A DNA stretch of 64,000 nucleotides from Arctopsyche grandis (Eukaryota; Arthropoda; Insecta; Trichoptera; Hydropsychidae), in NCBI RefSeq assembly GCF_051622035.1, contig NC_135358.1, forward strand, positions 994,501 to 1,058,500, written 5' to 3'. Under the pieces are notes generated by a model. That model searched no databases. It was not told the DNA's origin and saw only the letters and a list, made by a program, of their open reading frames with translations. The translations under genes were made by a program, and so were the position numbers. Below, in pieces: positions 20,925 to 58,500 of this stretch (the stretch's first letter is position 1; each line of letters opens with the position of its first letter).

Positions 20925-21702
20925 ATTCAGCCAGCAGCATAGCTCGTCATAGTTTCGTTTTACGCAATGCTCACAATTTCAATAATTTAAGAGTTTTGCG
21001 TCTTCTTTATAACGCATTGGTCCGAAGTATTTTGGAATCTGATGCCATTATATGGAGTCCCAGTGAATTAACTCACTCTCTAAAAATTGAAAGAGTTCAA
21101 AGGAAGTTCCTCCGCTATTTATATATGAGGGAGTTTGGATACTACCCTCAACTGTTTCCTAGTGCTTTTGTACAAGGTTCTGTTGGCTATAGTTCCCTAT
21201 CTCATCGGCGGGATATGCTTCTTGTGTGTCATTTCTTCAAATTATTAAGAGGTGATATTTACAACCCAACTATATTGGAAGAAATGAAATTTTGGGTTCC
21301 ATCTCGCCTCATTGATTATCGATTGCGTCCATTGTTCCAAACAATTAAAGCAAGAACTAATGTTCTTGCTTTTTCACCAATCGCTCGAGTCTTACGCTGC
21401 TTGAATTTGGTCAGCAATCACATTGATATTTTTAATATTTCACCGGATAATCTATCCGTATTTTTACTGTTTTTTACTTTTAATTCAATTTAAACTATTT
21501 ATATATTTATATACTTTTTTTTATTATTTTCACTTTTTAATTTTTATGTACAATTTTTTAAATGTTTTATTTTATTTATTTTTCTATTATTGTTGTTTTA
21601 TTTTGTCTTATGTATTTGAGCTTTTATGTATTGTCTGGCCACAGTGTTAAAATGGGGGTGACCTGTAAAGACACTGTGGTATACTTGTATATTAAAATAA
21701 AT
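20925..21702 (+). mobile_element. Family X retrotransposon, 3' part with RT C-terminus and terminal hairpin
   Basis: An open frame ending at 21493 encodes the C-terminal tail of a reverse transcriptase (LLYNALVRSILESDAIIWSP, RVQRKFLRYLYMREF, ARTNVLAFSPIARVLRCLN), matching the fragment at 1-1310. The frame happens to stay open back to 20729, but that part has no family similarity. After an AT-rich 3' UTR comes a hairpin, ccacagtgt (21639-21647) with acactgtgg (21671-21679), and the element ends in AAAATAAATAAAT. It is heavily 5'-truncated. Confidence 0.8.
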
Positions 21703-21908
21703 AAATGCTTTTTATTATTACGAAATTATGTTCACAATACATCTTATATCTATTTTAATAGCTACTGATTTAATAGCTACTATTTTAATAGCATTTTCTA
21801 TTTTTATTTAATTTGGTTAGTAATCATAGTATTATATTATTCTAATGTTAATGTACAGCATAATAGGAAAAAGAGCTCAAAAACCTATTTACAATTCTTA
21901 TAAACTCC
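21703..21908 (-). mobile_element. Family Y retrotransposon 3' UTR fragment
   Basis: Reverse complement of the 3' UTR of the element at 37430-40174 (ends GCATTTAAAAATC in full copies). Its 3' end abuts the tail of the family X copy on the left. Confidence 0.75.
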
Positions 21909-22401
21909 TGCTCACACAGTTCTTTTTCGAATGGCTCCTATTCCAAGAGCTATTCGACTTCTCAATGAAATCGTTGCTGCCGTGCCTGAATGCAATATTT
22001 TCCATTATTTTAACATGTTTATCTGGCAACCTACGCTCATCATTATTCTCTCAATTTGAATATGATGTATGTGTGGAATCTCAATCTACTCTCTTCCATT
22101 TGGGCCTCGCAGGGATGTTTTGTATTTGTAGCTTGTTCTTATTTATCGGAACAGGCTGCAGGTGCAAGACATTCCCTTATTTGTATTTTTACTTTTAATT
22201 TTAATTATTACTTTAAAGTTTTTTTATGATTGTGTTAAATGCTGTATTATCTTTTACTTTTCTTTTTTTTTAATTTTTTGTATCTTAATTTTTTGCTTTT
22301 GCTTTTTGTTTTATCTATTATTTTGTTTATTTTATTATGTACACCATTGTGGCGCATTAGGTTCTTCCTGTAATGCCACAATGGTCAAAAACGTTAAATA
22401 A
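21909..22401 (+). mobile_element. Family X retrotransposon, 3' end with hairpin
   Basis: It begins inside the RT C-terminus (FRMAPIPRAIRLLNEIVAA, shared with the minus-strand copy at 23855-24470), then has a 3' UTR sharing long blocks with that copy. It ends in an 11-bp perfect hairpin, accattgtggc (22343-22353) with gccacaatggt (22375-22385), followed by an A-rich tail. Confidence 0.8.
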
Positions 22402-22412
22402 GTAAATAGATA

Positions 22413-23030
22413 AATGCTCACAATACATCTAATACATAATAATAATTAAAGACTCTCTAAAGTCGATGACCTAAAGCAGATTGTGTTTAGTTAATCTATA
22501 TACATTTTTTTGATTTTTAAATGCTTTTTATTATTACTAAATTATGTTCACAATACATCTTATATCTATCATAATAGCTACTGATCTACTGATCATTTTC
22601 TATTTTACAATTTAATTTAAACTGGTCAGTAATCATAGTATTATATGATTCTAATGTTAATGTACAGCATAATAGGAAAAAGAGCTCAAAAACCCATTAA
22701 CAATTCTTATAAATGCTCATAATACATCTAATACATAATATTAATTAAAGACTCTCTAAAGTCGATGACCTAAGGCAGATTGTGTTTAGTTAATCTGTGT
22801 GTTCTACCTGAAGGGTATAGACATTTTGTCGTAATCACCGAGACTCTTCACAAGTATGTTAGTATTATTAGTTATTCTGTCATAGAATTTACTGGTTAGT
22901 TTGTTAGTAATGTCTGTAACAAACGGATTATTATATAAGGCATACAGTTTTTTCAAGTTAGTATATATGGATGTATTATAAATTATTTTTAGGGATTTAT
23001 TTTGTATTACTTGGAGCTTGGAAAGGTTAA
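22413..23030 (-). mobile_element. Family Y retrotransposon 3' end(s), with a second partial copy
   Basis: From about 22515 to 23030 this is the reverse complement of the last part of the ORF plus the 3' UTR of the element at 37430-40174 (SKLQVIQNK back-translation at the right end). The stretch 22413-22490 repeats an inner part of the same UTR, so either two insertions or an internal duplication is present. Confidence 0.75.
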
Positions 23031-23854
23031 ACGGAAACGATGTAAAATCGACTTCAATAAGTTTACAAACACTGCGTATACAAAGTCATGCTGAGACACC
23101 CGAGACACGCCGCAGATATTTTTCCAACAAAGTGAAACACGTTTGACATGTGACAAGAGGAGATTTCGAACGACGATGTCGACTATCTATCATCGCAGAT
23201 GTCAATCACGCAATCGCACCGTGATTTCATTCGTGAAAATTCTGCTTATACACACATATGTAGCTATAAATACAATATAGAATATATTTTCCGAGCACAC
23301 AATACTACGGCTTTCCATTGTGCACGTATACGAGAATACACACAATCTGATATAGCGCTTTCACAGTACGTTGGCACGGTCGGTAACAATGCCAAGGGTG
23401 GGTTATGACGGATCATTTGTACGCGCGTCACACATCTCTGCAGCAGCTGCTATGTGTAGCTCTACACTTTATAGTGCGTTTGCGGTCGCTTTGGCAGCCA
23501 ACTCGCCCTAGAAACCCGCTATAAGCGCCGCCAAACCCGTTGCCAGGAAGTGCTACAACTTCGATTGTCTCTTACGACTAATCGCTTCTGCATACATACA
23601 TACATACATAATATTACACACGTGTTACTCTTACTCAACTTTGTTGTAACCGACTGCACGATTCGGTTTAACCTTACCTTTATACGTGATCATATTGATT
23701 GGAAAAAATTCATTTATTATAATCTGGACGAAAATTCTCATTTTATTGTATTATACATATACATATGTACATATGTATATTTGACAGGTCAGTTGATTGT
23801 TATTAGTTGGGGAAAATATGTGATATAATATTACTATATACATATTTATTTATT
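23031..23854. other. GC-richer intergenic stretch, unrecognised
   Basis: Base composition is less AT-rich than its neighbours between about 23080 and 23600. No open frame, splice pattern or repeat family was recognised. It could be an old promoter or an unclassified element. Confidence 0.3.
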
Positions 23855-24470
23855 TATTTATTTTAAACAGACCATTGTGGCATAACAGGAATTCCTAAAG
23901 CGCCACAATGGTCAAAAAATATAACACAAAAAAGAAAAAAAACAAAATAACAATTAAACATAAACATAAATACATCCATACATACATAAAAAATAGCATT
24001 TATAATAACAGATAAAGTAAACATATCAAATAAAATATAGCATAAGGAATGCCTTGCACCTACAGCCAGTTTCAATAAATATGTAAGAAACAACTACAAA
24101 TACAAAACATCCCTGTAAGGCCCAAATGGAAGAGAGTTAATCAAAATTTCACTCATAAATCACAATCAATCATGAAAACAATGATGAGCGCAGACTACCA
24201 GATAAATGGGTTAGAGTAATTTCCGACAATTTACGCTCACTAAGGTGGAAAATATCACATTCAGTCTCGGCAGCAACGATTTCATTAAGAAGTCGGATAG
24301 CTCTTGGAATAGGAGCCATTCGAAAAAGGACTGTGCGGGCAGGAGGTACAGCCAGCAAATGATGATGTCTACCACGCACATAGTGAATAGGGACATAAAG
24401 CCCCAACTGCTCCAGCAACAACGGGCATGACGTATTACCACGATGAAATTCGTCAACTGATATGTAATAT
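23855..24470 (-). mobile_element. Family X retrotransposon, 3' end with hairpin
   Basis: On the minus strand, from about 24470, it encodes the end of the reverse transcriptase (HHLLAVPPARTVLF, RMAPIPRAIRLLNEIV, ECDIFHLSERKLSEI). A 3' UTR homologous to 21909-22401 follows, then an 11-bp perfect hairpin (23871-23881 with 23902-23912) and a tail of AAATA repeats ending near 23855. Confidence 0.85.
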
Positions 24471-24599
24471 GGGTGGGCCGAAATGTATCATCTGAATTTT
24501 TTCACATGTGTCTTTTTGATTATTGAAAATTTTTGAAAAATATAAATTGTGCTGTATAATTAATATTTTTTTGTTACTTAAATAAAATTTTTCTCTTTA

Positions 24600-24690
24600 G
24601 TATAAATATTTATTTATTTTTTACAATTTCGCCATAGTGACATTATAGATTAGCTCCAGGTCGTCACTATGACAAATTTATTACAAGATA
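24600..24690 (-). mobile_element. Retrotransposon 3' end with hairpin, inserted in the satellite
   Basis: Stem catagtgac (24633-24641) pairs with gtcactatg (24663-24671). On the minus strand the hairpin is followed by AATAAATAAATA. The loop is a diverged form of the family X loop. The 5' limit is unclear; the insertion may extend to about 25440. Confidence 0.55.
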
Positions 24691-25440
24691 TTGAAAACTC
24701 ATAATCAGAGATAGATAGGCGCGAAAATGCGCTGAAACGGGATCCTATTGTTAATTTCGACTATTCCTCAAAAATTCTATTGATAACTGGCTTACCTCGA
24801 TAAAATAAACGAATTTTTGTTATTAAACCACAAGAGTAGTCGAAATATATTTTTTTAAGTGGAATTTTATTTATTTCTCATATAAAGACAATTTAATATA
24901 TTATCTCTATTAATTCAATTTAGATTCGTGTAAATACGAGTAAATGATAGTACGAGATGTTAACTCGCAATTTTACCGATTTAAAATTCAGCACAATTCC
25001 AATTAACCCTTTTAAACGAAAACAAATAAAGTGTGGCCAGAACATTATTCCAATAAACATGATTCAATAGAAAATACTCAATATAAAATAGTATCAACAG
25101 TGGGAAAAAATCCCAAGTGAAAATACGTACTTTTGACTTTTGATTTAAACTGGACGACTACTTAGAAAGATTTGAAAGCTGAAAAGTACTACAAATGAAA
25201 GATAAAATACCTGACTATAGATTCCAATATTCATTTTGAACAGGAAATTGACAGATTTCAAGACATCGACCGAACAACACCAAGATATATAAAAATCGCG
25301 CGATTTAAAAAACATATACCTCCGAATCTCGAGCCAATCAACATTTTTTATTACCAGATTCGTGTTCACTAGGCATAGATCTATAAGAAAGATCGTATCT
25401 CGTCTCTGAACCAAAAAAAAAGTCGTCATTTGTCAAACAG
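24691..25440. other. Unrecognised stretch inside the satellite interruption
   Basis: A 94-residue minus-strand frame (25145-25429) has no recognisable domain. Probably the remainder of the inserted element. Confidence 0.3.
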
Positions 25441-26082
25441 TGTTATAGAATATTTAAAAAAAATAAAAATTGTGCTGTATAAATGAATATATTAATATTT
25501 TTTTTATTAGTTAAATAAACATTTTTTCTAGTATATATGTAGATGCAAACGTTCACTTTTAAATTATTAGTTAAATAAAATATGTTCTCTCTAATATAAC
25601 GATGCAAGCGTTCACTTTTAATTTTTTTCATTGCATATGTACGTAAATATGTATGTATGTAATGTATACAGTTGGGCCAAAATGTATCATCTGATATTGT
25701 TCTGTTGTCTTTTTGATAATTGAAATTTTTTTAGAAATAAAAATCGAGCTCTACAAATGAATGTATTAAGATTTGTTTTAATTAGTTAAATAAAATATGT
25801 TCTCTCTAGTATAACGATGCAAGCGTTCACTTTTACATTTTTTCATTGCATATGTATGTACGTTATGTATATAGGTGGGCCAAAATGTATCATCTGATTT
25901 TGTTCGGATGTTTCTTTTTAATTATTGAAAATTCATATAAAATAAAAATAGTGCTATATTATTAAATGTATTGAATTTTATTTAAATTATTTTTTAAATA
26001 TTATGTTTATCAAATTATGCATAATAAAATATGATCTCTCTGGCATAACATTGAAAATATTTATAAGTATCAATTATGTTTT

Positions 26083-26122
26083 AAAATTTTAAGCTTATAT
26101 GTACATATAAGCTTAAAATTTT
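26083..26122. repeat. 40-bp perfect palindrome
   Basis: Twenty base pairs around the centre at 26102/26103 (atatgtacatat core flanked by aagctt sites) with no loop. It replaces the expected end of the third satellite monomer. Confidence 0.8.
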
Positions 26123-26290
26123 TTACATATATTGAAAAATCTTGTTTTTTTCGATTAAACATACGTATGTAACCATGTCGTACATATATTTTCAATTATT
26201 TAATGGTTGTATGAAATAAAAATAGTATTGTATAATTAACGTATTTTATTTTAGTTGCATTATTTACTTGTATATATTATTAAATAAATT

Positions 26291-29200
26291 CATCATATTA
26301 TTTAATAATGATTATATTTTATTAAATAAATTCATTTATTTAATAATACATAAGTAGAAAACATATTTACAGGCTGTTGCGGTGATATAATTGTCGTTTT
26401 GATTCAACATATGTACGTCACAGTTAAAACACTGCCAACAAAACGTACGAATATAATACGAACATAATAACAAATCAACAAAAAACTTATATACATATAT
26501 ATACTGTTTGCTACTAATGTTTCCTCGAGGACAATAAGTCTCTGAGCATTTACCGCCATATATTAAAAGTTTATTTAATTAATTATTTTTTCTATTGCTG
26601 TTTAATATTGTTTATATGTAGGTAGATAGTTTTTACCATTTTTTTTCATATTGAACAATAACATATAAATATTAAATTAAACAAATTTAAAAGGTATTTG
26701 AAAAAAATACGACCGCGTGCGAATCGAATACATGACCGACACATTTATTTTTTATTTTTTTAATTAATTGCTTAATATGCCATAACCCATGCGATGATAT
26801 TTCATCGGGCAAAACCCAAGTTAAATAATATATTTATTAAATTATGCTGAAAAAATATACATACTCTCCGATGCTACGTATTTAGGTTCATTACAAAATA
26901 TTACAATTGAATTATTTTATTGTATTATACGTTATTATTTTATATTAATACCAATTTATTTTATTTTTACATGCTTTCTATATAAAATTTGCACAAAATA
27001 ATCGTTCAAGATAAAAGTTCCGATTGTTTCGTTTGTTCGCATTTTGGCAATTGATATTGTTGACATTATACGTGCCATCAAAATTATCACAATATCACGG
27101 TACATTTTAATTAAATCAAACTATACGTACACGTTGTACAAATTTATCTCGACAAGTAAAATTATCAGTTAATTTTACATACAAACACGTAACTGAAGTG
27201 CCCGATAACGCGTCGGCAGAATTACCAGTACAAAGACGTAAAGAGATAAAAATTTCACCTCAGTTCGCTTTATTAGCGATATGTCATATTGTACGTTGCA
27301 GTTGTTTATTGCATTTAAAACGCATTCGGCTACACTGACGATTAGTCGGATGCATACAAGCAAAATACATACGAGAACGGTGCCAAATCACAACTCGAAA
27401 ATCAAACAATTATATTTCACATAAACACTGCCGAAACGATCTATATTTATAAAACAAATCACTGCATGCACTATGTATAGCATTTTAGTCCAAACGTTTA
27501 CGTGTTAGATCAATCCTTGAATTAATTATAGCGTGTGATGCATTTTTGTATATTAAAATGGCGCTGGCGCATTTGTCAAACATCAATCAAAAGTAATGTT
27601 AAAAATTAACCTCACTTTCGACTGACAAACGACTTATGCACTCGGCCAAGTGTTACGAATGAACTAATCGTATAGTGCGACCGTGAAAATTCGGAAAATT
27701 GCTGTATCATGTGTATGTAATTAACCATGCAACTTTGATGCACTGAATTTCATTAAAGAACTTGAACTGAAATTATTGTTTTGCATACTATAAATATTGA
27801 CTCATTCTTAAAATACACTTTATTGTGAATGGATTAAATTATAATGGATTTCTAAATTTTAATATAATAATTGCATGAGACGCATCTTTGAAACTATTGT
27901 AGTAATACTTCATTAGATGTGACACGCTGATTGCAAGATCTTTATTAGTGAACTGGTTAATCATCAATTTCAACTAAGAAGATGATCAAAATGTGGATAT
28001 TATATTTGAATTCAATAAAATGTAACATATTTTAAATTTTCTGTTTATTTATACATCACAATGTGACTTAATTGTGTAAATTTGTTGCCTTACTTGAACA
28101 CAGCTAAATAGACATAATACATTTAACTGAAGCATTTTACCATACATATAATCACGTAACTTTATGTATAACAAGCTATTTATTTGGATATATCGTACAG
28201 AGATTTGAAGACGAAATTTTCAAAAGCTTTTCAAATGCTAATAGTAAACATTTCCATCAAAAGCACTGACTTTCTCTTATAAATATTTTCTCTTATTTCA
28301 TATTATTTATTGTGACGTTATGTTTTAGTTAGAAAATATCATTATATGTAGACACGTTGGCAATATTATACTAGATTATTGATATTACGAGCAACATCAA
28401 TGTCGAGAAAATATTATATTGAAATTGTTTTGTTCAATAAATTTAAGAAAAATATATGTCAATTTATATAGAAAACTTTCTTATTGGCATAGCTTAAGTA
28501 CGGATTTTTCTATAATATCAATTAAAGCTTATAATGACGATTATAATTGATACTTATAATGTTTTTCATTTTTTATCTGAAACTACATACATGAATGTAG
28601 TTTCATATGTATGTATATGATGCATAAAATATTGGCCACAGTTTTGGTAACAATTGAAAACTACACATGGCTAAAATCGAATGACCCAAATCAATTTAAA
28701 CCCTGGACTTATCAGTTTGCAAGCAAAAGCCCCACCAGCTTAGCAATGGCTTCATTTTGTACATGTATCTGTTATACATATGTATATGTATGTATGTATG
28801 TATGTATATGTAGTATAGATAAAATTTTATAAATAAATAAAGAAGAGTTTGCACGTGACACAAACTCATCAAAGCTATTATTTTAAGCTAACAAACGACA
28901 ATAGAGTTAATAGCTTTCTTTTAAAATACAATTCTTTTTTTCTCCCAACACTATAAAATGTATCGATTTGTTCACCATTATAAATAGACACGCAAACGTG
29001 AAGAATTTTTACGACAAATTTAATTTAAATTTCCCCGCGATACGAAACAAAACAAAATAAAATAAAATGAGAAAAAGAATAAAAAAATGTCGCATATCAT
29101 TAGAGATTATAATTGCCGCCGACGTATAAATCAGGCAGATTTATTTACATCCACGAGCACACGTTTGTTTCGTTTAATTGTTGAACGATTTCGACAAAAC

Positions 29201-30599
29201 AATGGTAAGAACATGCCGACATTAACCCTCAAGCTAATGAAATCATTTCCACCACAGCAATTTCAATTCAAAAACGCTCCATGGATTACAAAAAATCATT
29301 ATATTACATTTATATCGAATCTTTTACCTCTCATGGAAACTAAACGGTTTCTTCTCAATTATTATCATGACATTCTTCTTTGTTAGATTTTATGAAACAG
29401 TATCCAAAGTGTGTACATAAATAAGTTCCAATTTTAATGTATCCATTGTACGGCATTTATGTTTACATATATTGCTCTATATTTTCGTTAAATTGTGGTC
29501 AGTCTCTTAAATAGTAAATCTTAGGAATATAAAGACCTTTAAAAACAAACCAAATATATTCGTCAAAATCAACGAATTTATCTATTTTACTCTTCTACGA
29601 ACATACACGAAACGTGTTTTTCATTTTTCATTTTTTTCTGTAGAGTCCGAATCGTAAAAAATCAACCGACTGTTACTCCTTTTAATTATTTTCTTTATTT
29701 GATATTATTATGGTATGTGTCAACCAGAGTCTCCAATTTTATTGAAATAAATCCACAAATAAATTTAAATTGAATAAAAGTCATGAATTTAAATTACATT
29801 ATAAATAAAATCGCCAAATTGCAGGTATTTTTGATATATTGTGGCCAAAACCGATTGTTTTCTCCATCATATACTTTATTTTATTCTCATTTTTCGCACT
29901 GATTTATTTGTGTATGAAATTCATACACATACACTATTAAAATACTTATACTTTACTATTTCATAATTTAATAAATTCGGGTTACATGTCAATTTTACAT
30001 GATTTTTTTAATTCCTTTAATTTTTTATATTCTGAAAATCGCTATTATTTTTATAATTACTAACAATTTTATATCTTTGAGTCGATCTTACTAAAATCGT
30101 TCAAGTTGAATCGTTAAATAAAGTCAGAGCCTAAGTCGGTAAAATTTGATCCGACTCCACGCCCTGCTTATATTTATTTAAATGGGCAGGTGAAAGTTGA
30201 AAATAAACTAAAAATTTAACGCTAATTTCGTAAAATTGTTGAATTCCGGCCTTTGATCACGTCAAAAAAATATCTAAATCTAAGATACCATGAGAATATA
30301 CCTATATACTAAACTAGTGTTTCTGCCAGTTGATTTCAACGGGTGTTTTCGGAAAGGAATTGATACACGAATTAAAATAAAGTTATATGTTATACATAAA
30401 TATAATGTAAGGTAATTTATAGGCGCACGTGCGCACGTATTAATAGAAAAAGTTGAGTGCACGCATTACACGCTCGCCGATACAAACCATTCACCCGTTC
30501 GAAATGATGAATGAATGTATGTGTGTGATTGTGTGTCTTCGTGGACATGTGTATATGTGTACGCTCCCGCGCAGCGCATCTGACGCTGACGTCACCCAT
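26291..30599. other. Long intergenic region, no gene supported
   Basis: AT-rich throughout, with slightly GC-richer patches near 27200-27700 and 30420-30600. Frames such as 29087-29386 (99 residues) have no recognisable domain or splice partners. A TATG microsatellite lies near 28780-28810. Confidence 0.4.
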
Positions 30600-37370: not shown

Positions 37371-37429
37371 ATAGAAGTTTGACAAGATAGTAGATAAATA
37401 TATTAACATTTGAGCATATAATAATTTCG

Positions 37430-40174
37430 ACTCCGCAAAAAAAAAATTCCATAAAATTTCTTACCAAAACAGATTTACATATTGCGTAAAACATTTAGAA
37501 CTAACCGCCATCGAACTAACAATTAACAACACCCGTCACATAGTAGCATCCGCTTACAATCCTCCCCAAAAACGATTATTGGCATCCGATCTTTACAAAA
37601 TATTTAACATTGGTAGTTCGGTAGTGGTAGCTGGTGACTTTAATGCCAAACATCCGTTATGGAGTTGCGTAAACACTGACCAACAAGGCACAACTCTTTT
37701 TAAATACATTCAACTAACACATACAATCTTACTTCATCCGGATACATACACACACTATCCCACAAATAACTCACAACCATCCACACTAGATCTTGTCCTC
37801 GTCAAGAACTGCCCAAAAATATCGACACCAAATGCCCTTCAAACCCTGTCGTCTGATCATCTCCCGATAATCTTCTCAATCGACGGGAAACCCGAGAAAA
37901 TCATCAAGCATAGTTGGGATTACGGGAGAGCTAACTGGCGAGAGTTCAAGTCGTACATAAATGACCAAACCATTCTAACTTCTACCACACTCACAAACAA
38001 AACCGAAATCGACAGCTCCATAATACACCTAACGGAATCAATAACTCGATCCAAACACCTTCACATACCTAAGACACAATACATTGAACACAAATTAGAG
38101 ATAACTGACTTTGTTGCAAATCTAATTAAAAGTAAAAATAAACTCCGTAAAATTTGGCAAACATCAAAAAATCCAGCATTGAAAACATTAATTAATAAGC
38201 TCACATATCAAATTAAAATTAGAATCAAAGAAATCAAAAATGAAGCTTGGTCTAAAAAATTACAAAAATTGAGCTCAGTTGATGGCTCTCTATGGAAATT
38301 AGCTAAAGCGATTCGCAGGACAAAAAACTCGATTCCTCCATTAGATGATGCAGGAATCTCAGTGACGCGTGATTGCGACAAAGCAGAACTATTATCAAAA
38401 TCCTTCCAAAAACATCACACACTCACACAACATTACAATCACATACCAACGCATAATAAAGTCAACCGGTCCATTAAAATCATCAAAAAAACTCCCACTA
38501 ACAGTACTAAAAATATAAAATTGGTGCATCCGTGTGAAATCCAAAATATAATACGTAATTTAAAAAATAAAAAGGCACCTGGGCGAGATTCAATAGATAA
38601 CATCACAATCAAACAACTTCCATTTAAAGCTTTAGTCTCACTATCTAAAATATTCAACGCATGTTTACTCACCGGGTATTTCCCAGAATACTGGAAAACA
38701 GCCAACGTAATTCCCATACTTAAGCCCGATAAAAGCTCAAAAAACCCGGCCAATTATCGACCCATTAGCTTACTTTGCACGCTTTCAAAAATTCTGGAAA
38801 AAATAATCTACACACGTTTACTTAAAGTCGTAAATAAGAAATTAATAAATGAACAATTTGGATTTCGCACTGGACATTCCACGACCCAACAACTAACAAG
38901 ACTAATTGAACACGTGACGAAGAACTTTAATATGAAGAGAAGTACCGGAATGGTATGTCTCGACATAGAAAAGTCCTTCGACACGGTTTGGCACGATGGA
39001 CTCATTCATAAGCTCCTTATTAACAAAATACCAAACTACCTAATTCTCATCGTCAAATCGTACTTAACTCGTAGAAAGCTAGTGGTTAGCGTAAATAATG
39101 AATTATCGTCTCCAAAAATAATCGCAGCTGGCGTTCCGCAGGGGAGCTTGCTTGGCCCACTCTTGTTCTCCATATATATAAATGACATACCTATCCCAAA
39201 AAACTGTCACATAGCCCTATATGCAGATGATACAGCTTGCTTCACAAGTAGCAAAAAACCAGACACTATTCTTAAAAATCTTGAATTTGCAATTAAAACA
39301 ATGACTGAACACTTCACTAAGTGGAAAATTCAAATTAATCAAACCAAAACAGACGCCATATTCTTTAGTGTTAGAAAACATAAGCCAAGTTCAGATCTGA
39401 AAATCCCCTCTGGAGAAAGTCTGAAATGGCAGTCAGTAATAAAATATTTAGGAGTAACGTTTGATAAAAGAATGAGATGGGCACCTCACATTGAGGCAGC
39501 GAAATGCAAGGCGATGCGAGGTATATCCTCAATATATCCAATATTTAATCGCCATAGTTCTTTATCAACGCTAAATAAAATAAAATTATATCGCGCGCTC
39601 ATATTACCATTATTAACCTATGCTTCACCTGTATGGAATAACGCCTCGAATACTAACCTTTCCAAGCTCCAAGTAATACAAAATAAATCCCTTAAAATAA
39701 TTTATAATACACCCATATATACTAACCTGAAAAAACTGCATGCTATATATTATATTCCGTTTGTTACAGACATTACTAACAAACTAACCAGTAGATTCTA
39801 TGAAAGAATCACTAATAACCATACTAACACACTTGTGAAGAGTCTCGGTGATTACAACAAAATGTCTATACCCTTCAGGTATAAACACAGATTACCTAAA
39901 CACAATCTGCTTTAGGTCATCGACTTTAGATAGTCTTTAATTAATATTATGTATTAGATGTATTATGAACATTTATAAGGATTGTAAATAGGTTTTTGAG
40001 CTCTTTTTCCTATTATGCTTTAGATTAACATTAGAATAATATAATACTGTGATTACTAACCAAATTAAATTAAAATTGTAAAATAGAAAATGATCAGTAG
40101 ATCAGTAGCTATTAAAATAGATATAAGATGTATTGTGAACATAATTTCGTAATAATAAAAAGCATTTAAAAATC
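37430..40174 (+). mobile_element. Jockey-type non-LTR retrotransposon (family Y), 5'-truncated, RT frame intact
   Basis: The frame is open from about 37430 to the stop at 39913-39915. It first encodes the C-terminal part of an apurinic-type endonuclease (ELTAIELTINNTRHIVASAY, GDFNAKHPLW, STLDLVL, SSDHLPII), then a full reverse transcriptase: KKAPGRDSIDN, NYRPISLLCTLSKILE, LDIEKSFDTVWHDGL (motif A), GVPQGSLLGPLLF (motif B), YADD (motif C), KYLGVTFDKRMRW, and the C-terminal YASPVWNNAS. The 3' UTR runs to GCATTTAAAAATC at about 40174. ORF1 and the endonuclease N-terminus are lost. It is inserted into a hAT element. The UTR recurs at least six times in the window, so the family has been active here. 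Confidence 0.9.
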
Positions 40175-48117: not shown

Positions 48118-50551
48118 TTAAAATATGATTTTTTCCATGGATATATAATACCCAAAGACATCAAAATATTTAAATATAATTAATTTTATTGTACAATGTA
48201 GATTTTTTTTATTATTATTCCAGCCTTATAAATATTTAATACATTTGCATAGCACAGAGGGTACAATAAATCTCTTAAGAGATATTTCGAATATGTAGTT
48301 AAGGCATATTTCGAAACGGACTAAAATTTAATTTACAAAAAAAAAACATTTTAATTAAAATATACATTAAATCAAAAAAAATGAAATCAAGTCAAATGTC
48401 GAAGAGTCAAAAGAGTTGCGAAAGCATGGCGAGCTGGACACTTCTCACATAAATCGAACGTATACTAATCGACAGCTTATCTGGTCTTTAACTCTTCATA
48501 ATGGAGTCGTAATTCACACGGAGAGCTTTCGCAGAATGTGCACATTTACCGACACACTAGCACAGTAGCGATTTCAAGCGAAGAAAATTTACACCAAGTC
48601 CTCAACACATCAAAGCCAAGACGTTTTGAACGATATCTGCAAAGTGTGTTCACGCAATTGGAATTTATGGACAAGACTTGTCAATAAGCTTACACGCGAG
48701 CGGCACTAGGTTCACATTATAACTGGGCCAAGCGTGGCAACACTTACGAAATACCCTGTATATTATAAATAGGTGTACGTCATTTCGAGGCCTCTCCGTA
48801 GTCGGATTCGACTTCGACCTTGTTTGTTTGGAATTTCATTGGAAATTTCACCGAAATTCCTAAATTTTCCGGTCAACGAACGCTGGCGCTATACGCGAAT
48901 TCAAATTTTTATCGATTTTATTTCATTAAGAATTATTGCGGTTAATAAATAGTAATCTAGGTGCAATTAACCGATCGCGCCATTTAAGGACGGTCAGTTG
49001 CGGATAAACGATCCGGTTGAGATTATTAGATGTATAAAAGTGTTGGGAAACAAAACTTGAAATATGTCGTGTTGGATGATTTTGCAATGGCGATGACAGA
49101 TTGTTCGATTATAATTGTATGCTAATTTTGACGGAACTGCTATAAATTTCAGTGTAAATGAGGAATTGTAGTGTAACCTTTGAACGCCTACTGATTGTTT
49201 GACTTTTTATGCGAAAAATATTGATTTGATTTATAGTTACGTTTCAAGAGCGCGTTGCGAATTTAAATATTATTAAATTATGGATATTATTCTGATGTTA
49301 AAACCATAAAGGTTATTTAAATGCGAATCGTTTATACACTGGAATGATATAATATGGATTTGGGCCAAAAGTTGAGTAAGACTTTGACCAAATTGAATCA
49401 CCTTTGTTGGATCCTTCCCAACTTTTTAATGTTTCAACTTACAAAAACGAAAAAATAACGAGAATCTTCGTAACAAGTTGATTAATTTTATTTGATCTTA
49501 TATTGCATACCAATTTTACCAATTTTATTTCATGGTTGTAGATTCAACTTCGTAGACGTGAAGATATTATATTTTTAAATATTTTTTGTCGTGTCTTTAC
49601 AGTTGCCCAAAATGACACTATGACCAAACATTCAAACAAAAAAAGAATTCACGTGAAAAGAAAAAATACATAAATTAGGAGAAAAAAACATGATAAAAAA
49701 CTAGAAAGAGCATGATAAACATTTTAAAAATCGTAAACAAATATAGTTGGACGATCAAGTTTCAGAAGATTGAGTCGAATATAAAAAATGACATGTTTTT
49801 TAGAGAAGATGAATCTTTATTAATGTATAAAATAATACAATTATTATTAGTTAATTTAATATATCAAATGTACCTACCTATCCATATGAAAATTAACCAA
49901 TATAAATTTTCTAATTATATTTGGTTATATACATATGTATTTTAATAAAAAAATCTGAGATTTAAATAAGTAGGTACATATGTACATATATATGTACATA
50001 TTCATTTTTTACTTATTTTCATTTTAAAATAACAAAAAATATCAATGGATTTTGATATTATGAAAACAAAATATAAAAAAAATCTTAATCATAAAGTGAA
50101 CCAAAATGAAAAGCTTTCTACATATGAAAGTAGTTAGTTTAATAATAGTTTGTTTTAATACGTTATATTATATACATATATTAATTGAAATTATATAATA
50201 ATATTATGATTGATTTATTTATAAGTACCATTAACAATTTTTAATTGCATTTATACAATCTGAAAAGAATATTTCAGTCTAAACACCTCTATATAAACCG
50301 CAATGTAATATCTGTAAGTAAAAAATAGATACATTTCAAGCCGTCAAATTGAACTGTGAATACGTTGAAGTTTGATTGAAATTCAAAATCAGCACGTACA
50401 ACCATTTTTAATTAACATGCGATAAATAAGCACGGAAGTACATTCGATATACAAACCGTGTAAGCCAAAGTGAAACAATTTAAATTTATTGCTCCAGTTC
50501 CTTCGATCCGAGCCAAGTCCACGTCTCAAATAAATCCACAAAAATTTGATT
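48118..50551. other. Intergenic, possible promoter near 48765
   Basis: TATAAATAGG near 48765 lies about 30 bases before ccgtagtcggattc within a GC-richer patch (48400-49000). No coding exon was identified downstream. The remainder is AT-rich. Confidence 0.3.
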
Positions 50552-50990
50552 TTTAAATGCTTTTTATTATTACGAAATTATGTTCACAATACATCTTATA
50601 TCTACAATTTTAATAGCGACTGATCTACTGATCATTTTCTATTTTACAATTTTAATTTAATTTGATTAGTAATCATAGCATTATATTATTCTAATGTTAA
50701 TGTACAGCATAATAGGAAAAAGAGCTCAAAAACCTATTTACAATTCTTATAAATGCTCATAATACATCTAATACATAATATTAATTAAAGACTATGTAAA
50801 GTCGATGACCTAAAGCAGATTGTGTTTAGGTAATCTGTGTGTTATACCTGAAAGGTATAGACATTTTGTTGTAATCACCGAGACTTAGACGAGACTAAGA
50901 CACCGGAATATTATATGTGACATGCAGTGTTTTCAAGTTAGTATATATAGGTGTATTATAAATTATTTTTAGGGATTAAACACATGTACA
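50552..50990 (-). mobile_element. Family Y retrotransposon 3' end
   Basis: Reverse complement of the 3' UTR and last ORF codons of the 37430-40174 element (ctttttattattacgaaatt, gtcgatgacctaaagcag, gtatagacattttgt). A short deletion or rearrangement lies near 50880-50920. Confidence 0.8.
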
Positions 50991-51049
50991 TAATATTGTA
51001 CACACCGCAATTGTCATTACCTACATATGTACGTGTATAACAATACGTG

Positions 51050-51730
51050 TATTCTTCTTTAAGCTCATAAATGGTTTCCTTGATTGTTCTGATTTACTGA
51101 ATAAGGTTAATTTCAGAATCCCAGTTCGATACCCTAGACGCGTTGCACTCTTTTCACTTGATCCTTTCAATACTAATTCCCAAAAATATTTTTATCTGCA
51201 GCGCGTTTATCGTATGTTTAACGGAGAGCTGAATGAGGTTGATCTGTTTGGTATTTCCCTACATCAATTCAGGTCTAACATCAAGAGAATCTTGACCGAT
51301 TGATTCATTTTTTCTTCTATTCTATTTTTCCAATATTTCCATTATTTTTATACTTTAGTTTAGTTATGTAATGTGCTATTTAATCATATTATAGCTTTCA
51401 TTCCTTTCCATTTCATTTGTTTATTTTGTATTTACCTTTTTCATTTGTTTTTTATATTTGTAAATTTCAATTTCTTCTTATATTCTATCTTATAACCTTT
51501 TCCAATTATTTTAATACTATAGTTTAATTATGCAATGTACTACATATTTTGTCATGCCTTTATTCTTTACTTTTTAATTTGTTTTCCTTATATTTATCTT
51601 TTTCATTTTTGTAAAAATCTATTATTGGACTCGGGTGTTACATATATTATTTATTTACTTTTTGTGTTTTTTATACCTATCTCTGTACATCCTGTCTGTT
51701 GATTTTTCAATTAATAAAATAAAAATAAAA
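51050..51730 (+). mobile_element. Family Z non-LTR retrotransposon 3' end with RT C-terminus
   Basis: A frame from about 51050 encodes a reverse-transcriptase C-terminal tail (RIPVRYPRRVALFSLDPFNT, YLQRVYRMFNGELNEVDLFG, FRSNIKRILTD, stop). It continues into the 3' UTR that is also found at 2884-3418 and ends in AAAATA repeats. Confidence 0.8.
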
Positions 51731-53009
51731 ATAAATAACAACGACGGTAAGCGTGAGTTAACCGAGGTTATGGCTTTGTAACGAAGCTCACGACTATCGA
51801 GCTTTTTAATCACGGTCTCGATTATGCTATTATGCCTGTGAGATACTTGAAAATTTCAAGAATAAGATGCAGTTTCAAAAAAATGAGTTTTCCATTCAGT
51901 TGGACCGGATTCGGTGTCGAGTTGCGTCACATACTCGCAGTTCGTGACGCAATTTTTCGGGTTCAAAATTCGTATCGGAACTTGTGAACGTACGAAACCT
52001 TGCCGTGCTTGATACGCGCCAGTGCCTCTCAAATGGGGCGAAAAAAGTGACGATGGCACGAAGGCCGCTATAGGAAATATCGTGAAAGCTGTATACGTAT
52101 GTATGTATATGTAGATAGAGGAAGTCTATGGTGAGATTTCGATACTTGGCTTCCGACATTGGAAAATTTTGCCTTTACGATTCATAAAATTATATTAGAA
52201 ATTAACTTAAAGTGCTAATACATATATCAAATTGAATAAATAAACCATTCCAACATTGATGAAAGTGAACGCTCAGTTTATATATAAATTACTATAATAA
52301 TTATTACGAGTTGTGCATGAACAGTTCTGGTTATTATATGTACAATCAATCAATTCCGTACGATTCATTTGCATTCGTTTTTAAACTATTTACTTTGCGA
52401 AATTTTCCCCCTTATTTCTTTAACATTGATAAGTGCAATTATATCGTTTGAGATCGTAATTATTAATTGTTGCAAAATGTCGATTGATAATCTTAGCCAT
52501 ATATTATATTAAAACTAAGTACATAGATAAAGTAAAAATAGATAGAATATTGCTCTACATAGTTACGGTTAATTTGATATTTAAAGCGACGATGTACTGA
52601 AATACTATTTATTTATTTTAACATTTTTAAGAGAAACTTATAGCTAATACAAAAATAATAAAATGAATAGTTATACAAGTTTCTTCAGATAGCATGAAAA
52701 ATCTGAGTAAAGTAGAATTAGCTAGGAAGGATTTATCAAATAAAAAAATACAAAAAAAAAATTATGAAAAATTCATAAGAATTATCTTAATTGATTACTT
52801 CTGCTCTATACTTTGCTACATAAAAACATTTAAAGATTATGATAAGTAATAGTATAAAGTTAAGCGAAAAGCGATTATGATAAGTAATAATATAAAGTTA
52901 AGCGAAAAGGGTTAAAAAAACGATCTGGAAAATGAGTTCTTAATTGTATATAAACTATCGTGAAATATAATTTTTTTTTTTATTTATTTACATACATATT
53001 TTCACATAC
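51731..53009. other. Intergenic
   Basis: A less AT-rich stretch at 51740-52090 has no recognised content. An imperfect direct repeat (gattatgataagtaat.. aagttaagcgaaaa) occurs twice near 52835 and 52875. No gene. Confidence 0.4.
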
Positions 53010-53460
53010 ATATATACAAATATACCAGGAAGGCTTAACAGGTAAACCCCAAATGCGCCTTCCTGGTCCACATAATTATTACATAGATACATGTAAATCT
53101 AAATATCTGACATCTATGGTCAGTATACATATATTACAAACATCGTATTAATACGATAAATAACTTTCATGTAACAATACGAATTTTATATTCGATAAAC
53201 AACCACAGAGACATCTATAGTGAGCAATATGGTGAAACCTAAGATATAACAATAACTAAAGGTTCGCAACAGAAAATTGGGAAGGAAACGCCAATTTTAC
53301 AGGAATCGTTTCAATGAAAATCAGAAAAATTGGCAAATTCTGATAAGAAACGATCGACCTTGACAAATCAAGGTCTGGCCAATAGCGAGACTTAGCGGGA
53401 ATCGAACTCGTAACATCAAGTACGAAATAATTCAACATTCACCACTAGACCACGCTGCTG
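53010..53460 (-). mobile_element. tRNA-derived SINE, copy 3 (most complete)
   Basis: On the minus strand it starts at 53460 with CAGCAGCGTGGTCTAGTGG (A-box) and, about 45 bases on, GAGTTCGATTCC (B-box), both close to tRNA consensus. The shared SINE body follows (53270-53380). The 3' end carries an 11-bp perfect hairpin, accaggaaggc (53024-53034) with gccttcctggt (53057-53067), with a loop like that of family X retrotransposons. Length is about 450 bases. Confidence 0.85.
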
Positions 53461-53520
53461 ATTATATATAAATGATTCAATTTATTTAAGATTGCTTTAA
53501 TTATCTATCTGTACATATGT

Positions 53521-54072
53521 ATAAAAGAAGTAAAGAGACGTGTGAAATAAGGATGGAGTGCATTTGAACGAATGAATGTTGTTTTTAAATCAAAAATGCC
53601 ACTCTATCTGAAGAAAAAGATCTTCGATCAATGCATTTTGCCAGCGATGACGTATGGATGTGAAACTTGGACATTGAACGCCAAGATGTTACACAAAGTT
53701 CAATTCACTCAAAGAAGTATGGAACACTCTATGCTCTGGATAACGAGGAAAGTCAGGAAGCGGAATACGTGCGTGAGAAGTATGACAAGGGAAGTGGACA
53801 TAGTAGATAGAGTACAGAGATTGAAATGGCAATGGGCGGGTCACGTGGCTAGAAGAACGGACAAAAGGTGGACAAAAGAAGTGCTATAATGGTACCCGAG
53901 AGAATGTACAGGGATAAAAGGCAGACCGCAGGGAAGATGGGTAGATGAAATTAGGAAAATGTGTGAAGTGAGATGGATGTGAGTTGCGCAAAACAGAGAC
54001 GAGTGGAAACGTGTTGGAGAGGCCTTCGTCCAAAAGTAAATAGTGAGTGGCTGTAGATGATGATGATACACA
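53521..54072 (+). mobile_element. RTE-type retrotransposon relic
   Basis: The frame encodes the C-terminus of an RTE-like reverse transcriptase: KKKIFDQCILPAMTYGCETW, QRSMEHSMLWI, RVQRLKWQWAGHVARRTDKR, then after a stop at 53887 WVDEIRKM and a DEWKRVGEAF segment. In-frame stops also occur near 53552 and 53982 and at the end. The tail is GATGATGATGATA, a simple repeat typical of RTE 3' ends. It is inactive. Confidence 0.85.
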
Positions 54073-55695
54073 CATATGTAAGGTATGTTAGGTATATTCT
54101 CAAATTAGTGCTAATTTTTATGTAGCTTCAATTTTTCTTACAAATCATGTTGTTTAAAATCATATTTTATAAAAACATTATGCGGCGCATTCTGATTATA
54201 ATATCAATTTAATATAATGTCATTTAAAAAATATATCTTGAGAATTAATTGAAAGCTATCTGCACATTCTGTTGGGTTTATAAAACGATTCATTAAAAAG
54301 GGATAATATTTTTGTCACGTTTTATAAAATAATAAATATCACACATTCCAATTTTGGCACTTTTTTTTTTTTAATATATTGAATCCCATTGATATAATTA
54401 CATAGATTATTCAATAAATCTTATATATATATAATGAAGATAATGCGTTTCATCATATTACACCTTATCGATTGATTTAATATTCCAAAGTGAAAAAAAC
54501 TTACACTGTCTGATTTGGACAGTTATTTCTGATTTTATTATAGTTTCGAAATTATTTTTAGAACCAATTTATCTAAAAAAAAAAAACAAGAAAATAAACC
54601 AACAACATTTCTGCTAATTCAAAGCAGAAATGAAAGCAAAATGAATATGAAATATACATATATATTATGATCAATTTAACCTAACTATTATAGTTATAAT
54701 ACAACTTACCAACACTGATAATTAAATATAATCGAAATATAATACAAACTAGCAAACTCTTGATGTATATTATCAACAAACATTTCACACATAACGAGAT
54801 AGAGTCCAATGAGTATAACCTTAGGTCTCTTAATAGACTTGGTCTACTTTTTTTAAGTCTACGTTTTAAGCGCTCGGTCACGGTTGCGCCTTAATTAAGG
54901 CGTTGATTTTAACAAATGGCCTTTGGTGATAAAGGAATAGTATCGACCAATCTGATTGGCAATTTTTCAACGGGTTATCAACATTTCTGCCGCAGCCTTG
55001 GTATAGTTAAAGTGCGATTTGTGTGAAATTCGCATTGCGAAACAAACGCTTAGCGGAAGGCAAAGTCGACGGGAGCTTTAACCTGTAAAAGTATGTATGT
55101 ATGTATGTACATAAGTACCTACTTACTGAATGGTTATATAGCATAAGATGGCAATCGGTACCTTGCTCTGGCTATTCTGAATTAATTGTTAAAACGACAA
55201 CGGAATCAAAGCACGACGTTGAGGAATTTGCTGGCGTGAAAGGTCTCAAAGATACCCATAAATATTTATACATACGTATATACGAGTATAATATGTATGG
55301 ATAAAAGTTACGCGAGACTGTGCAAAACGTATGCAAAAAAGCACAGGTAAACGTTAAAGATTAGAGAGATATCTAATACACATTGGAAATTTAGAATGTG
55401 CCATTTCGCAATCGAGGAAAGAGATTTCGAGCGAATTGCTGTTGCAAAAAAATTATTTGCAGAGATATGTATGTGATATAATATTTGCAAGTAATCGAGC
55501 CAAATTAATATCGGACACGATTGTCATACTGTTCGTATTAAAAAGCTAATAATATTGCAATTGTTAAAATTCGCAGTGAAAATGTAACCGAATCGATTTC
55601 CTGACATACTCTTTCAGATTATAATATTATTATTATACATACAGGAAACAAATAATATAAATATACACGTTAAAAAAATAATATTGAATAAAAGC
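54073..55695. other. Intergenic
   Basis: A 16-bp palindrome, cgccttaattaaggcg, lies near 54888 in a GC-richer patch (54880-55080). No gene recognised. Confidence 0.35.
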
Positions 55696-56303
55696 TTAAC
55701 CCTCCCTCACCGCAGTGGGGTATGCAAGTGCCCCATTTTTTACGTTTTTCGTAATAACTATGTGGTTTTCAAAGCTATACACCCTATATTTCTTGTATTC
55801 CTGGAATGAATTACAAGAAATTTATTTTAATAGATTTTGTATGATTTAGAAAAGGGGTACATCGTAAAAAAAATACATTTATACATTTCTACGTTCCAAA
55901 GTATGATTTAAAGGCGATAGCGATAAGTCATGTTTTTGACTGTTTGCTTGCATATTCTTGTTGATCGATGAATCAATGCGAGAGAAAGAGACAGCTATAT
56001 TTTCGTAAGCTATTGCTTTCGTCGCTTTTTGGCGCGTGGCTATTGAGTCATGCAGTTGCCTGTTGGCCTTACCTATGTATGTTTGCATGTCGATTTTTGT
56101 CGTTATTTTTTAATACAAAAATAGTCAAAAACATGCTGTAGGACTAAAACTTTTTATGTTGACTTATAAAATGATTAATAAAATATATATTGAACCCTTT
56201 TGTATTGAGAAAAGCTGTATTTTGATTAAAAAATACTGGGGTCTTACTCGACAACGGTTCGGGACGCTCGTTCGATCTCGACGCTCCGTCCTTCAAAGGT
56301 TAA
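55696..56303 (-). mobile_element. TTAA-flanked non-autonomous element, copy 2 (600 bp, inverted)
   Basis: Runs from CCCTCCCTCACC at 55700 to ccttcaaagg at 56299, bounded by TTAA (55696-55699 and 56300-56303). Same family as 46017-46557 but inverted. The middle differs by a block near 55955-56040. Confidence 0.8.
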
Positions 56304-57339
56304 TAATTATAATGATTTTTTCGATCGTTTTTTGCCCCAGATTCCAAATGAATCATAATTCAACGATTACTCAAAGGATTAACGTTCGCCTCGACAAAAT
56401 TAAAGGTTACACACTTTTTATAACAATAAAAAGAATGTTATACAAAGCACTACAATGTTATTATTTATTTACGATGCTTATTAAAGTATGATACAGAAAG
56501 GCGCTGCTATTAATTGTATACATACGACAAAAGCGATTGTTATACAAAATATAATGGTCAGATCACGAGTTCAACATAATATCGCTGTTTTAAATACAAA
56601 GCAATTTTGTATAATATTCTCAATATACCCACATACATACATACATATACAATATACATAAGAAAGTCACTGTGGATAATTTAAAATTAATGCAAAAAGT
56701 ACTTCATAGTCTTCCGCGACAATTTGCGGTCAGTATAAAGATACATAAAAATTCATTTCATGTAGGGATAGCTACACATATCCTGTTGGTTGAACCTTTG
56801 GACCAGTTGGCTCGAAGGTCAATTGTTTTCGATCGGAATTAAATTTATGTACTTACTACATATACATATATGTATATGTATGTATACAAGCGTCTGTCGG
56901 CGGTTGTAATTAAAATGTATGGTTAGCCAGTAATGCAATCGTGACCAAAAAAAGTGGGCCGACGGAGACAATATGGCGGCCCCAGCACTGAAAAAATGTT
57001 CTTGACAGTGGTATTTGATTGTATTTTTTTTTTAAATCGCCAAACAGGTGCTTTTTGGCTATAAATTTATATTTGACACTCTCATATTCTTTCATTATCG
57101 CATAAAACTATTACAACCACATGTGTTTGTAGGTATAACATACATAATATGTTACACATTCAATAAGTTCTCGAAATGTGTCTATTATTCTTAAACAGAA
57201 TATATTTATACATTAGACAGCAGCATGTCTAATTAATGTCGGTGGTTGGGCTTTTGCCTAGCACCGAGAAGCGCCAATTTGAAAACTCAATTGAAAAGAA
57301 TTTATTCTGAGTATATCTGAAATGCTAATGGTCAGACTT
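56304..57339. other. Intergenic
   Basis: AT-rich, TATG microsatellite near 56865-56885; nothing else recognised. Confidence 0.4.
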
Positions 57340-57445
57340 GGATATTTGTGACTCCAAGTTGATCGTTTCCTATCAGAGTTTGCCAATTTTTCTTTTCATA
57401 TTGTTGAAACGGTTCCAAAATTGTTGAAACGGTTAAATTGGCTAA
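57340..57445 (+). mobile_element. SINE body fragment, plus strand
   Basis: gactccaagttgatcgtttc, atcagagtttgccaattttt and gaaacggttcc match the minus-strand bodies of the three SINE copies. A head could begin near 57230, but no clear A or B box was seen. Confidence 0.55.
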
Positions 57446-57486
57446 AAACCATCCTACTTACTATGCCACCACTATTTGAGTATGAT

Positions 57487-58308
57487 TAAAGGTCTGTTCA
57501 TACTTAAGAGCACTGCACGGCTTCAGCGCTGCACGACTCCGTTTCAAATATGTCATTTTGTTACATTTCTATTCATATCTACCTACACGTCGCGGTCACG
57601 TCACGTTCACAGCACTTTGGCCGAGTGCAAGGCAAAATCGGCTTACTTATACATTACAGGCCATGACGATACGGCGCAATATTGCTTACATAGTATTGTC
57701 GAGTACTTACAATATGAATGCATACACGTGCATTCGTAGCTACGCGTCAGAATACAAGTCATCAAAAATTATGTATAATCGCGTTTTTGTTGGAAGAAGA
57801 AGCTTACGAAGGCAATAAAAAAGCACGGAGGCGTTTTTATGTGCATCCCATGTTAAAAAATAGAAAAACCGAAGGAGAGTTTTGGACACTGTATAAGGAG
57901 CTTGTGGATGATGGACAAAAATTTTTTAAATATTTCCGTATGAAACGATACCAATTTGAAACAATACTGGATAAAATAAAAACTCAAATCACCAAAAAAT
58001 CTACAAAATATAATGAAGCATCGTCAAAAAGTCATTGTCACTATCGATAATTGGTCCAAAATAGCAAATCGGCATACTCATGGCACGTAATTCTCGTGTA
58101 TATGTATATCCACGATGGCTAAAAATACGGATACGATACGTTGACGGATGTTGCTGTAAGGTATGAACAGGAAATGTCGGGTACTGCTGTAAGCCTGCCG
58201 TGGTGTAAACGTGACGGTTGATATGAACATACCCATACAAAATGTACCAAAGAATACTTTTCGTACGGCCGGATACCTGCTGAAGTCGGTCTGCAGAACA
58301 GACCTTAA
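57487..58308 (+). mobile_element. PIF/Harbinger element, internally deleted
   Basis: Ends AGGTCTGTTC (57490) and GAACAGACCT (to 58305) are perfect 10-bp inverted repeats; a CTTCAGC block further in also matches in inverted order. Both sides have TAA (57487-57489, 58306-58308), the usual 3-bp target for this superfamily. At 816 bp it keeps only part of the transposase. Confidence 0.75.
57718..58050 (+). pseudogene. PIF/Harbinger transposase, N-terminal part only
   Basis: Residues about 12-100 of this frame read like the N-terminal region of Harbinger/HARBI1-type transposases: RRRFYVHPMLKNRKTEGEF, LYKELVDDGQKFFKYFRM, FETILDKIKTQITKKSTKY. The frame then ends and none of the DDE catalytic core follows before the right inverted repeat. 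It is a non-functional remnant in a deletion derivative. Confidence 0.8.
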
Positions 58309-58440
58309 TGTACAATAAAATGTATGTACAGGTTTAAAATTCATATATGTATGTACATACATATGTCTCGTAACGTTCGAGTTTTTCAGTGTCTCATAAT
58401 TCAGCGACTTATATAATAAAAATGCTGCATTGTTTGTAAT

Positions 58441-58500
58441 TGGCCAGGAAGGCGCATTGGGGATTACCTGTCAGGCCTTCCTAGTATATACATACATAAG
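58441..58500 (+). mobile_element. 3' end hairpin of SINE/family X type
   Basis: ccaggaaggc (58444-58453) pairs with gccttcctag (58475-58484), 9 of 10 pairs. The loop GCATTGGGGATTACCTGTCAG is close to copy 3 of the SINE. The 5' part of the element could not be traced. Confidence 0.65.

Follow-up and report, generated by a model that had tools for sequence, protein, structure and literature searches.

In a 64,000-nucleotide stretch of the Arctopsyche grandis genome (contig NC_135358.1, positions 994,501 to 1,058,500; here called the window), six repeat copies end in a hairpin of one design. This hairpin is very probably the 3' element by which a set of related long interspersed nuclear elements (LINEs) of the stringent type, and the short interspersed nuclear elements (SINEs) that use them, are recognized. 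An earlier note on this DNA had suggested that a fold at the 3' end is recognized by the element's reverse transcriptase (RT); the 3' position of the hairpin, covariation of its stem between families and its sharing by LINEs and SINEs all lend support to that suggestion. A covarying RNA structure first spotted by tool-free reading was in this way upheld by a genome-wide check.

Six hairpins of one design

The six hairpins, which we name by the start coordinates of the earlier note, were found by sequence and folding where that note had placed them, and on the strands it had assigned. In all six, a small internal loop separates a lower stem of 10 to 13 pairs from an upper stem, which is capped by a tip of 4 or 5 bases. 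The upper stem consists of 4 or 5 pairs, with U, A or G, G, G or A facing C or U, C, U, G or A. The region described in the note as a loop of 20 to 23 bases is itself folded into the upper stem and tip. The predicted folding energies range from -19.9 to -26.0 kcal/mol, and for five of the hairpins none of 200 dinucleotide shuffles folded equally well (z -5.1 to -7.5). The 58444 hairpin is weaker (z -2.1; 5 of 200 shuffles as good), with one stem pair lost.

The hairpins and the elements that bear on them are listed below. LINE families are lettered A to F, SINE families are designated S1, S2 and S4, genome loci have L numbers, ORF2 is open reading frame 2, and bit scores refer to R1, a covariance model built from the same six hairpins that it then finds.

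2 to 1333, minus strand: RT part of ORF2 of a LINE-A1 copy (RVT_1; 99.8% identity over 435 amino acids to LINE-A1), the 3' hairpin of which lies just beyond the window (seen in L053)
20951 to 21493, plus strand: 5'-truncated LINE-B copy, C-terminal part of ORF2 in open frame 20651-21493 (98.9% amino acid identity to LINE-B ORF2 over 180 amino acids)
21637 to 21681, plus strand: hairpin 1 (21639 copy), LINE-B 3' end, followed by ATACTTGTATATTAAAATAAATAAATG (fold; 52.9 bits)
21905 to 22404, plus strand: 5'-truncated LINE-A1 copy within another repeat (A1 protein fragments; 3' border by eye)
22342 to 22386, plus strand: hairpin 2 (22343 copy), LINE-A1 3' end (56.1 bits; stem and loop as in 30 LINE-A1 loci)
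23847 to 24442, minus strand: 5'-truncated LINE-A2 copy, ORF2 C-terminus and 3' untranslated region (UTR) (against L084, 100% amino acid identity over 90 amino acids and 98.5% nucleotide identity over 326)
23870 to 23913, minus strand: hairpin 3 (23871 copy), LINE-A2 3' end before a AAATAAATAAAT-type tail (54.1 bits; identical in L084)
24607 to 24700, minus strand: 5'-truncated copy with a SINE-S4/LINE-F tail (95.7% over 94 to SINE S4 of L115; 88.5% over 61 to LINE-F of L119)
24630 to 24674, minus strand: hairpin 4 (24633 copy; 51.6 bits)
49587 to 49625, minus strand: degraded seventh hairpin, LINE-B-like 3' end (16.0 bits, E 0.031; 49593-49701 is 70% identical over 111 to a LINE-B 3' end)
52995 to 53460, minus strand: SINE with a tRNA-like head and a LINE-D-type tail (head, core and tail alignments; 3' border by eye; 85.3% over 156 when aligned with the S4-tailed SINE in L115)
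53023 to 53068, minus strand: hairpin 5 (53024 copy), SINE tail (54.7 bits)
57214 to 57492, plus strand: SINE S1, 5' part (57286-57489 is 82.3% identical over 209 to SINE S1 of L023; borders by eye)
58306 to 58515, plus strand: SINE S1, 3' part (58347-58487 is 84.8% identical over 151 to SINE S1 of L023; borders by eye)
58442 to 58486, plus strand: hairpin 6 (58444 copy), SINE S1 tail with one broken stem pair (54.4 bits; z as above)

Not all six elements are LINEs: three of the hairpins (LINE-B, A1 and A2) are LINE ends, the 53024 and 58444 copies are SINEs with a tRNA-like head, and the 24633 copy is a truncated SINE-S4/LINE-F tail. R1 recovered all six in the window at 51.6 to 56.1 bits. 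With the reverse strands of the hairpins excluded, the next-best match was the degraded seventh hairpin, and the remainder scored at most 11.8 bits; a scan of the window with Rfam 15 gave no match at gathering score. The window is AT-rich (G+C of 26 to 37% in 2-kb steps) and contains many transposons. The repeat that flanks the truncated LINE-A1 copy has uninterrupted copies at 22709, 39976 and 50749, and the insertion has a possible 5-bp duplication, ATAAA, which is ambiguous with the tail. Local repeats at 24461-24607 and 25461-26280 flank the 24633 copy, which seems to be inserted in them.

MAFFT aligned the six hairpins in register and almost free of gaps, with mainly the middle pairs varying, so the description of the stems as unrelated in sequence has to be abandoned. 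In this alignment, 95.8% of cells were paired; shuffles averaged 81.1%, and none of 500 reached the observed value. Sliding the register by 1 to 3 columns lowered pairing to 33 to 61%. Two-sided changes were seen in 7 of 16 pairs, against 3.5 in shuffles (1 of 500), located in lower-stem columns 3, 7 to 10 and 12 and in one upper pair, and the covariation score was 0.596, against 0.270 (0 of 500). The idea that pairing is kept while the stem changes therefore held among the six, but perfect pairing is not universal, since sampled LINE-B, C and E copies have one or two stem mismatches.

The hairpin ends six families of LINEs

We searched 475,669,232 bases of genome sequence containing the window; alignments at family level represent a sample of copies. 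A 21-base pattern of one hairpin type had 10,250 matches at up to 2 mismatches, and the reversed control had none. Six LINE families (A to F) end in the hairpin, just before TAAA or A-rich tails.

LINE-A1, identified from the RT frame at 2-1333, yielded 11,307 first-look candidates, of which 95 were scored (75 at 97 to 100% and 20 at 91% identity). In copy L083, open frames of 370 and 989 codons overlap, and a domain search on L056 identified endonuclease (PF03372) and RT (PF00078) domains in the second frame. Among the 30 best LINE-A1 loci, 29 have the 22343-type hairpin downstream of their longest frame, and by direct match it was found in all 30, each time followed by CCAAAACTAT, TAAA repeats of varying length and the flank; these loci are near-identical copies, and L077 and L078 also have a common flank. 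A second subfamily, LINE-A2, has an ORF2 88% identical to that of A1 and carries the hairpin of window copy 23871.

When the ORF2 C-terminus of the 21639 element was used as the query, 150 scored matches in several classes were obtained from 10,649 candidates. Twelve further LINE 3' ends were recovered, 11 of which had an R1 hairpin of at least 38.5 bits; at the other, L091 (10.0 bits), a degenerate copy is readable. A query with LINE-D, a more distant relative, added eight ends, seven with a hairpin of at least 15.9 bits and one, L104, with a partial, rearranged copy. Placement of the hairpin at the element's 3' end before an A-rich tail, as the note had proposed, was thus confirmed in all sampled ends except these two degenerate ones. 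LINE-B (965 codons), LINE-C (972 codons, two subfamilies), LINE-D and LINE-E were defined among these sequences.

ORF2 identity between the six families is about 32 to 60%: 36 to 38% between A and B, C or E, 45% between B and C, 48% between B and E, 47% between C and E, and 60% between D and B over the ORF2 C-terminus only. The C-terminal fragment of LINE-F in L119 is 46% identical to C and 32 to 35% to the other families. These elements have the features of LINEs, with endonuclease and RT in one open frame, 5'-truncated copies with empty sites, and an A-rich or repeat tail; the endonuclease model in LINE-B fell below its cut-off. The best sequence matches in the PDB were LINE-1 ORF2 and R2-type proteins, which is insufficient to place the LINE clade. 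A search of IMG/VR with the RT protein found no relatives. In 22 IMG/VR stretches retrieved by a loop pattern, R1 gave seven matches of at most 16.4 bits, covering only model positions 12 to 34, which we took as chance.

Stems covary between families

Families were compared with the geometry kept fixed and each LINE family (A1, B, C1, D, E and F) represented by a single sequence. This replaced a count in which the distance from stem to upper part was chosen for best pairing, a choice that favors pairing. Rows for the subfamilies A2, S1, S2T and S4 were also extracted but, as they repeat families already entered, took no part in the permutation tests. Across the six LINE families, the hairpins' own arms paired at 65 of 72 positions, whereas arms swapped between families averaged 8.93 of 12; only 1 of 720 arm permutations, the true one, reached 65. 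With SINE S2 added, own arms paired at 77 of 84 positions, and 1 of 5,040 permutations was as good. Changes were two-sided in 6 of 12 columns between the LINE families and in 9 of 12 with S2. These data bear out the covariation expected in the earlier note, in that pairing between families exceeds that of arm-swapped controls.

Columns 16/35 of S2 gave a further example within one tail type: among the 100 listed of 1,689 matches, A-T occurred in 59, T-A in 37, and G-C, G-T, T-G and A-A in 1 each. These variants fall mainly into two subfamilies and hence represent few events.

SINEs carry the tails of LINEs

The 53024 and 58444 copies were read as tRNA-headed SINEs, their heads having been compared by eye with the A and B box consensus; ARAGORN predicted no tRNA in the window. 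The tail of SINE S1 is that of LINE-D, the same stem and loop standing about 100 bases past the LINE-D protein match in L103. SINE S4 (L114 and L115) and LINE-F (L119) have nearly the same tail, of the type of window copy 24633, which had 486 pattern matches in the genome; the tips differ, being GCUAA in S4 and ACUAC in LINE-F. A 3' tail common to a LINE and a SINE is therefore found for S1 with LINE-D and for S4 with LINE-F. A third tail, S2, occurs on the SINEs of L027, L117 and L118 and had 1,689 pattern matches in the genome. The body of the 53024 SINE, which has a LINE-D tail, can be aligned for most of its length to the body of L114, which has a LINE-F tail; one SINE body has thus been combined with different tails that follow a single hairpin design. 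The L114 hairpin has a deletion, and that of L115 is intact.

Several further observations concern these SINEs. The 58444 SINE is split by a DNA-transposon-like insert of about 0.8 kb (about 57491-58308; borders by eye), which has inverted ends AGGTCTGTTC/GAACAGACCT and a TAA-like duplication and is putatively Harbinger-like. At 10900-11330 (minus strand) lies a SINE that has this core in common with them and ends in a decayed tail of the S2 type (CACTCGTCGCTTTGGAGCGACCTGTGAAGG). In 3 of 30 S1 loci (L033, L040 and L051), the 5' arm and loop are kept and similarity ends right after CCTGTTA or CCTGTTAGG, as if they had been cut at nearly the same place in the hairpin. A second tail type, at L080:4022-4065 (plus strand) and L096:200-243 (minus strand), has the S1 stem, a shorter loop and different upstream sequence, and may mark an unseen live LINE. 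At G000:C1:5795469-5795503, a string that resembles the LINE-A hairpin's 3' arm runs into what looks like the loop and 3' arm of SINE S1, a possible chimera.

Proposed recognition of the hairpin and alternative explanations

Sharing of a 3' end by LINEs and SINEs with different bodies is the classic sign of stringent recognition. We therefore propose a model in which the hairpin, near the end of the element RNA, would be followed by a short spacer and then by a repeat of the TAAA type. We infer that the ORF2 protein binds the hairpin: it would hold the folded stem in a sequence-tolerant manner, probably via the region between endonuclease and RT, and would read the upper stem and tip, after which target-primed reverse transcription would begin within the repeat. 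A stem held mainly as a helix would drift by paired changes, with the upper part more conserved. SINEs would gain mobility through the tail of a LINE and would change their host LINE by changing that tail. The linkers of LINE-A1, B, C and E contain PxWF, and a further W follows the first one 19 residues later, the same spacing as W325 and W344 of ZfL2-2 (PMC4176376, in part); compared by eye, this is a resemblance only.

Several observations weigh against this model. LINE-D is known from three damaged or partial copies and LINE-F from one locus, L119, and no partner LINE for the S2 tail was found among the LINE ends recovered from the genome. The six middle columns taken alone gave a weaker result, with 32 of 36 positions paired and 2 of 720 permutations doing equally well; in the window hairpins, the number of further pair types did not exceed that of shuffles (15 against 12.8; 85 of 500), and the families have shared ancestry, so that the rows are not independent in tests that model no tree. 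Mismatches also recur within families: U.U at columns 10/39 in four of six LINE-B-like ends (L088, L089, L090 and L099; these columns pair in L092 and in the window copy, and L091 is degenerate), C.U at 7/42 in four of five LINE-C1 copies, C.A at 10/39 in the LINE-C2 copies L109 and L110, and two adjacent mismatches in all three LINE-E copies. Perfect pairing is thus not required. An unpaired C and a U-U mismatch within the stem are reported to be required by UnaL2 (PMC5135761, in part), and the mismatches here may be functional in the same way or may be intermediates of compensatory change.

The persistence of pairing could instead arise when DNA or cDNA is copied, through quasi-palindrome correction or template switching between the arms, rather than from selection on RNA. 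The middle of the LINE-D stem reads GGAAGG and that of its nearest relative, LINE-B, CAGTGT, despite 60% identical ORF2 C-termini, and one switch could alter both arms. However, individual SINE copies show no such repair. Among 30 S1 loci, picked by a 21-base pattern that fixes columns 11 to 14 and the loop, 14 had a perfect stem, 3 without a 3' arm were left out, and 13 carried 21 changed pairs, all of them one-sided (5 still pair as G-U). In 79 S1-type copies with a mutated column 8, taken from the 100 listed of 388 matches with A or C at that column, the partner pairs in only 5. This lack of compensation argues for selection on active RNAs and not for correction at the DNA level, which would also sit poorly with the mismatches retained in LINE-B, C and E, and we regard copying as a very unlikely cause. 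Single copies decay freely, and we infer that pairing is kept only in active lineages. The same decay without compensation bears on the suggestion that the hairpins resemble one another through shared descent of a functionless 3' UTR, with pairing persisting by inertia. The relatedness of the families and the likeness of their outer and inner stem bases speak for it, but the middle columns have turned over two-sidedly at about 32 to 60% ORF2 identity and swapped arms pair worse than own arms; this explanation is almost certainly wrong.

A role for the hairpin in RNA 3' end formation, export or stability, in the manner of a terminator or a histone-type stem-loop, would likewise account for a 3'-terminal position directly before the tail and for a maintained stem. 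LINEs and tRNA-headed SINEs are as a rule transcribed by different RNA polymerases, yet both carry the hairpin, and the family-specific LINE tails on SINEs point to the LINE machinery. We therefore consider it highly improbable that RNA processing, rather than recognition by the RT, explains the hairpin, although the two roles could coexist. Chance was rejected as the origin of the likeness between hairpins, and a microRNA-type hairpin was judged improbable because the upper rather than the lower stem is conserved.

Returning to recognition by ORF2, it is conceivable, though on balance unlikely, that several LINE families of this genome read the upper stem and tip as a shared currency, and that details of stem and tip form a loose address, altered by LINEs to evade SINEs and recovered by SINEs through an exchange of tails. 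Such an address would fit the recently active appearance of S1 (9 of 30 loci are 98.6 to 100% identical to their nearest copy) while just three damaged LINE-D copies were found.

Relation to known systems

The L2-clade elements UnaL2 of eel and ZfL2-1 and ZfL2-2 of zebrafish likewise have a 3'-terminal stem-loop before a short repeat, and UnaL2 is described as having its hairpin, which has a GGAUA tip loop and functional stem mismatches (PMC5135761, in part), in common with a SINE. For ZfL2-1 and ZfL2-2, stems are reported to be exchangeable and loops not; movement is lost when the stem is broken, and binding maps to the region between endonuclease and RT (PMC4176376, in part). This behavior predicts the pattern seen here, namely, a conserved upper part, a tolerant paired stem, a 3'-terminal place and sharing with SINEs. 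In contrast to these systems, the present one comprises six LINE families in a single genome with one upper-stem module and different covarying stems, and its tail is TAAA-type rather than TGTAA.

Plant L1 LINEs and monocot SINEs, studied by Ohshima, are reported to share a 3' hairpin with conserved loop and flank bases, a variable stem and compensatory changes (PMC3747384, in part); that hairpin belongs to another kingdom, and its conserved bases, as described there, differ (UCU loop and CGAG flank). Among lepidopteran SINEs, HaSE1 and HaSE2 of Helicoverpa and PxSE of Plutella are reported to have a tRNA head and central domain in common and differing 3' regions, and some carry the tail of a partner LINE (PMC3272025 and PMC8010984, both in part). 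Exchange of SINE tails has already been stated for them (PMC8010984, in part). Unlike in those descriptions, the SINE tails examined here are variants of one hairpin, and the terms "hairpin" and "stem" are absent from the main text of PMC3272025 and PMC8010984. We found no description of this particular hairpin in the literature searched, the coverage of which left out most subscription journals. The mechanism is thus already known, and the hairpin itself looks like a new example of it; what is special is that a single genome holds six LINE families, and SINE tails of at least three kinds, with one hairpin design.

The six LINE families, some of them with many near-identical copies and long open frames, and the common-bodied SINEs that bear several of their tails are a natural set for testing what the LINE enzyme reads, whether helix, mismatch or tip, and for studying the coevolution of recognition and tails and the change of host by SINEs. 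They also raise a testable question, which is which LINE moves SINE S1.

Other features of the window

Another LINE lies at 37414-39915, an 833-codon frame with endonuclease and RT domains that shows 27 to 30% identity with the hairpin LINEs; further copies of its 3' part lie at 22807-23028 and near 50813-50975. The region 2047-19458 holds a cluster of related open frames, judged by eye to be leucine-rich-repeat-like:

2047 to 2853: leucine-rich-repeat-like frame, by eye
6847 to 7689: leucine-rich-repeat-like frame, by eye
9573 to 10370: leucine-rich-repeat-like frame, by eye
13844 to 15718: leucine-rich-repeat-like frame, by eye
17734 to 19458: leucine-rich-repeat-like frame, by eye

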